The position numbers and the translations under genes were made by a program. 60,266 bases of DNA, taken from positions 1-60,266 of the forward strand of contig JAGBOC010000001.1 in assembly GCA_017634065.1 (NCBI GenBank), written 5' to 3'. Source of the stretch: Lachnospiraceae bacterium (GTDB lineage Bacteria; Bacillota; Clostridia; Lachnospirales; Lachnospiraceae). Shown piece after piece: positions 60,082 through 60,266 of the stretch. Under the pieces are notes generated by a model. That model had not been told where the DNA came from, ran no database searches, and was given only the letters and a program-made list of their open reading frames with translations. Every line of letters begins with the position of its first letter. Positions within the stretch are counted from its first letter, which is position 1.

Positions 60082-60266
60082 TAACAAGAGAGTTTGATCC
60101 TGGCTCAGGATGAACGCTAGCGGCAGGCTTAACACATGCAAGTCGAGGGGCAGCGCGATGTAGCAATACATTGGCGGCGACCGGCGGAAGGGTGCGTAAC
60201 GCGTGAGCAACATGCCCGTCACAGGGGGATAATCCATGGAAACGTGGTCTAAAACCGCATAGATTA
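60082..60266 (+). rRNA. 16S rRNA, 5' end (cut by the window edge)
   Basis: The universal AGAGTTTGATCCTGGCTCAG lies at 60089-60108, which places the mature 5' end near 60082. What follows, GATGAACGCTAGCGGCAGGC and then TTAACACATGCAAGTCGAGG and GGCAGC, is the pattern of Bacteroidota; Firmicutes typically read GA(C/T)GAACGCTGGCGGC and CAAGTCGAAC/G. The part GGCGGAAGGGTGCGTAACG with GTGAGCAACATGCCC also fits Bacteroidales. This contrasts with all protein genes upstream. Confidence 0.95.

Follow-up and report, generated by a model that had tools for sequence, protein, structure and literature searches.

The window analysed here, 60,266 nucleotides long, is the entire contig C2 of a Lachnospiraceae bacterium genome (G000; 1.61 Mb, 33 contigs, 87% complete). 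A 16S rRNA gene begins at its 3' end, and a preliminary description read this start as Bacteroidota-like beside a clostridial left side. Does this 16S start belong to the genome, did the genome acquire it, or was it joined to the contig during assembly?

The contig ends in a Bacteroidales-type 16S rRNA start

Positions 60082-60266 correspond to the 5' end of bacterial 16S rRNA (RF00177, 122.8 bits, 1e-34, model positions 1-180), and the match is cut on its 3' side by the contig end at 60266. The motifs quoted in the preliminary description were found in the window. From 60119 on, the 16S sequence is Bacteroidales-like, which defines the following feature:

60119..60266, + strand: 16S rRNA of Bacteroidales type, roughly its positions 30-180, foreign to G000; terminates at the contig end.

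Relatives of this piece were collected by scanning genome contigs. A 41-base exact pattern gave no match in these contigs, and a looser, degenerate V1 pattern gave 14 loci (referred to below as V1-pattern loci). Thirteen of them are titled Bacteroidales or Bacteroidia; the remaining one, L028, is titled Selenomonadaceae. When the 185 bases of the 16S piece were compared by BLAST with all collected loci, the 15 ranks under the window itself were taken by the 14 V1-pattern loci and by L026, from the same-family genome G214. The best relatives are gut Bacteroidales MAGs, within a comparison set that was chosen by a Bacteroidales-like pattern and is not an unbiased 16S reference database. Identity to the window was 95.5% for L041 and L037 (over 177-178 bases), 94.8% for L040 and 94.3% for L032 (both over 174 bases). 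Those 16S starts of the same family or order that aligned over most of the 185 bases reached 71-77%, and several further ones aligned over the conserved first 50-68 bases only. Placement of these bases in a Firmicutes clade, the outcome named beforehand as a refutation, was looked for in this BLAST comparison and did not occur.

The difference was also visible in 60119-60258, where identities were obtained for 17 of 20 loci (L015, L016 and L041 gave no value). Nine V1-pattern loci showed 85-94%, the lowest value being that of L039 with its insertion; L026 showed 80%. Values of 64-71% were obtained for seven loci from the genus, family or order of G000. As a less selected check, we compared positions 59700-60266 with a plasmid collection. 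Among the 20 records listed of 539, Parabacteroides distasonis had the top score (84.3%, 182 bits). Several of the best matches carry titles naming goat, sheep, deer or buffalo gut.

Two of the collected loci have peculiarities of their own. L039, a Bacteroidia MAG, differs from the window 16S by 3 mismatches and one 22-base insertion. This V1 insertion (around 1690-1735 of L039) looks like a tandem duplication, is absent from the window and may itself be an assembly error. In L028, the contig of the Selenomonadaceae-titled MAG terminates in a 16S of Bacteroidales type preceded by a leader of the same type; mis-binning, or a chimeric join farther upstream, may be the cause.

The left side is native to the genus up to the 16S gene

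To the left of the 16S gene, we recognized the following features:

58391..58975, + strand: protein gene adjoining the rrn locus; 88-91% over 194 aa in G001:C17, G005:C7 and G009:C5.
59022..59348, - strand: small protein resembling HTH repressors, part of the native flank; DicA/RstR hits weak and under the cut-off, synteny.
59362..59676, - strand: second small HTH repressor-like protein, native flank; weak match below cut-off, synteny.
59870..60088, + strand: native rrn leader, holding the 5' half of the 16S processing stem; contig C9, G009 and leader-trailer pairing.

The product of the first gene is one that we take to be a YsxC/EngB-like GTPase. In the three same-genus genomes examined (G001:C17, G005:C7 and G009:C5), this gene and both HTH genes are likewise found next to the rrn leader, in unchanged order. 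The two HTH genes, at 59022-59676, are related to each other and arranged in tandem, an arrangement that is kept beside the rrn leader in these three genomes. An NCBIfam scan of 10 window proteins returned no phylum-diagnostic name, and three of the 10 had no family match at all. The left side is therefore identified as clostridial by its relatives and by the rrn evidence. By its 16S motifs, we take the clostridial genome to be Lachnospiraceae-like.

The rrn evidence comes partly from G000 itself, which has at least two rrn leaders (C2 and C9). Positions 59936-60027 of the window leader are 98% identical to C9:180-271 (92 bases), and C9 breaks off within the 16S start, of which 31 bases match (C9:1-31). 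The same-genus contig G009:C5 aligns with the window from 59870 onward. The motif TATATTTG, present at 59897-59904, is a Bacteroidota promoter motif. We rejected it as a promoter of that kind, since the stretch aligns with the rrn leader of G009.

The first 27 or so bases of contig C4 of the bin belong to a 16S 3' end. Its sequence, GGATCACC, is the same in those loci of the genus, family and order for which a 16S 3' end was in hand; it is unlike GGAACACC, the end found in L039, the sole Bacteroidales locus whose 3' end was compared. We calculated duplexes between leaders and the 16S trailer of C4. The window leader gave -51.9 kcal/mol and the whole leader of C9 gave -52.6 kcal/mol; among 300 mononucleotide shuffles of the window leader, the strongest duplex had -43.5 kcal/mol. 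The leaders of 10 of the 14 V1-pattern loci (all except L029, L035, L038 and L041) gave -26.0 to -36.3 kcal/mol. The pairing of window leader and C4 trailer, presumably the usual 16S processing stem, ties the window leader to a native 16S. The left side up to the 16S gene is native to the genus of G000, and the pairing of a Bacteroidota-like 16S start with a clostridial left side, as first described, was borne out.

The switch lies within a block of 30 identical bases

Between the native leader and the foreign tail lies one further feature:

60089..60118, + strand: 30 bases shared exactly by same-genus G009 and the Bacteroidales-type loci; contains the switch; exact-match lengths.

G009 is identical to the window for 55 bases leftward of 60119. 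After 60118, G009 continues with the clostridial GGCGGCGTGCC and the window with AGCGGCAGGC. The same 10 V1-pattern loci as in the duplex calculations (nine titled Bacteroidales or Bacteroidia, and L028) all matched the window for exactly 30 bases leftward of 60119, with the first mismatch at 60088. Since the Bacteroidales-type loci first differ at 60088 and G009 is identical to 60118, the switch lies within 60089-60118. The preliminary description had allowed it to lie in the conserved block or anywhere back to about 59866. The former placement agrees with the bracket given here; the latter does not, because the leader is native to 60088. A switch in the leader or further upstream was rejected on the evidence of C9, G009 and the leader-trailer stem. 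Two features that mark a chimera are present: the left parent is native to G000 up to the shared block and the right side is foreign, and the switch falls within 30 bases that both parents share exactly.

Little other 16S sequence was detected in the bin. BLAST of the 185 bases in G000 found C2 itself and C9:1-31, and a search for the conserved 16S start pattern found C2 only. An Rfam-based search of the whole genome reported no 16S; it was positive in 9 of 14 controls and missed the window's own fragment, so a native 16S body may still be present in the bin. This search and a family search for 23S detected neither a donor 16S body nor a 23S in G000. The listed contamination of G000 is 0.03, a figure in which a foreign tail of 148 bases would hardly register.

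Similar joins are found in related genomes

We searched 12 same-genus genomes for a 16S start with the pattern GTTTGATCCTGGCTCAGGATGAACGCT. Five hold a matching start: G000, G002, G003, G009 and G011. The start has the clostridial form in G002 (2 copies), G003 and G009, and in same-genus genomes a clostridial 16S stands behind the same kind of leader as in the window. Only G000 and G011 have a Bacteroidota form, in both cases at a contig end, and the two types differ (AGCGGCAGGC vs AGCTACAGGC). In G011:C36 (L019:1-450), a same-genus rrn leader is followed by 56 bases of AGCTACAGGC-type 16S, which run to the contig end.

The search was extended to 397 genomes of the family, a draw that did not include G011 and in which many genomes may lack a 16S. 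Two of the 397, the window's genome and G214, had the Bacteroidota-type start pattern, both times near a contig end; by this pattern, none held a mosaic with both flanks complete. The 73 kb contig G214:C12 (L074:1-4773) opens 34 bases before the 16S, with a Bacteroidales-type leader, and its Bacteroidota-type part runs to the contig start. We scanned its 16S at diagnostic sites, using one Bacteroidales reference (L039) and four clostridial references. Up to about base 919, most but not all of these sites were Bacteroidales-like; beyond about base 933, nearly all were clostridial-like. A tRNA-Ala spacer and then a 23S follow downstream. This 23S is nearer to that of G010, of the genus of G000 (74% over 1455), than to that of L039 (70% over 1281 and 77% over 365). 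On these grounds, G214:C12 is an apparent chimera in the reverse order, which would have been joined at a conserved 16S block in mid-gene.

Biological explanations of the 16S start

Taken as given, the sequence reads as the product of a cross-phylum gene conversion, in which one 16S copy became Bacteroidales in its 5' part or in full and the native leader was kept; with at least two rrn leaders in the genome, one copy could differ from the other. However, the switch falls exactly in the block that is ambiguous for an assembler, and the contig is over 148 bases later. Moreover, like joins occur in G011, with another Bacteroidota type, and in G214, in reverse order and at another conserved block, and this recurrence points to the method and not to one event. 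The count of two Bacteroidota-type starts among the 397 family genomes, together with their position near contig ends, also speaks against conversion, which we consider very improbable. The same low credence applies to the claim that one rrn copy of G000 has a real mosaic 16S, with a 5' domain converted to Bacteroidales behind the native leader. Intragenic 16S recombination and rrn transfer are known as processes, and either would likewise yield a mosaic 16S. In contrast to these processes, the case in the window is cross-phylum, its switch is confined to a stretch without any difference between the sequences, and similar joins were seen near other contig ends with another Bacteroidota type. 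Among the titles listed by a brief literature search on 16S recombination and rrn transfer, none concerned a cross-phylum case.

The preliminary description had named a transferred rRNA operon as the more exciting option, and the adjacency of Bacteroidales-type 16S bases to clostridial genes is what transfer of a whole Bacteroidales operon into a clostridial genome would give. Yet the leader is native to base 60088, the last before the shared block, and neither leader nor flanks of a donor accompany the 16S. Directly before the 16S start, 12 of the 14 V1-pattern loci have ACAAAGAA/ACAATGAA (in the remaining two, the stored stretch contains no readable 16S start), and the window leader lacks it. 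The window leader is instead complementary to the native trailer of C4, where the bin's 16S 3' end is of the native type, and gene order at the locus is shared with G001, G005 and G009. We rejected whole-operon transfer on this evidence and regard its probability as negligible. That the genus might naturally have a 16S merely resembling Bacteroidales in V1-V2 is highly unlikely as well. We found no point in support of it, and it is at odds with the clostridial starts of G002 (2 copies), G003 and G009 and with the differing Bacteroidota types of G000 and G011. Nothing was found that favours a biological mosaic.

A probable mis-join during metagenome assembly

Contig C2 is very probably chimeric, the product of a false connection made at a conserved 16S block in metagenome assembly, and its tail would then be an assembly artefact and not a transferred gene. 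The suggestion that the contig was joined across such a block is thus supported by the native leader to 60088, the native-type trailer and the clostridial 16S of same-genus genomes. Short of proof, we strongly infer that assembly, and not an event in a cell, produced the switch. We also infer that a Bacteroidales bacterium was present in the same sample as the clostridial genome. The clostridial genome would have been assembled correctly through its own rrn leader into the first 16S bases. At 60089-60118, where the sequences are identical, the assembler would have taken the Bacteroidales path for 148 bases and then stopped. The larger k values in common use exceed 30 bases. Since the shared block is shorter than these, the join would have needed a small k or a later assembly step.

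A published report (PMC11443906) describes conserved 16S regions as longer than the typical k-mer length, so that de Bruijn assemblers cannot choose which variable parts to connect. Like the chimeric metagenome contigs at conserved 16S blocks treated there, the window switches inside an identical block, has different organisms on either side and ends soon after, and the remainder of the rrn operon was not found in the bin. The join in the window is known from a finished contig, not from a branch in an assembly graph.

The window tail is a caution and not a discovery, because such tails can give a MAG a 16S label of the wrong phylum. G214 is a worse case; with roughly the first 920 16S bases of Bacteroidales type and the remainder of clostridial type, it could be misplaced by 16S-based naming. 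A true cross-phylum 16S mosaic, which the evidence argues against, would matter for 16S phylogeny.

Organization of rRNA genes in the genus

The rrn loci of the genus showed further features. In G000, G002, G005 and G011, the 16S 3' end is followed by tRNA-Ile and 5S; the 6-12 kb read past this point contained no 23S. G010 has a tRNA-Ile - 5S arrangement. Conversely, 23S genes start without a 16S or 5S in the preceding 6 kb in G010:C2 (after tRNA-Lys) and in G002:C1; both copies are cut by a contig end, and a 5S behind them is possible. Judging from these loci (G000:C4:1-266, that is L018/L075, and L078, L079, L080, L082, L076 and L077), the rrn operon of the genus may be split. The 16S-tRNA-Ile-5S order without an adjacent 23S may merit separate attention. 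A second type of rrn leader also exists in the genus, with tRNA-Ser(TGA) upstream of the 16S (L017:313-399, L020, L022, L085 and L087).
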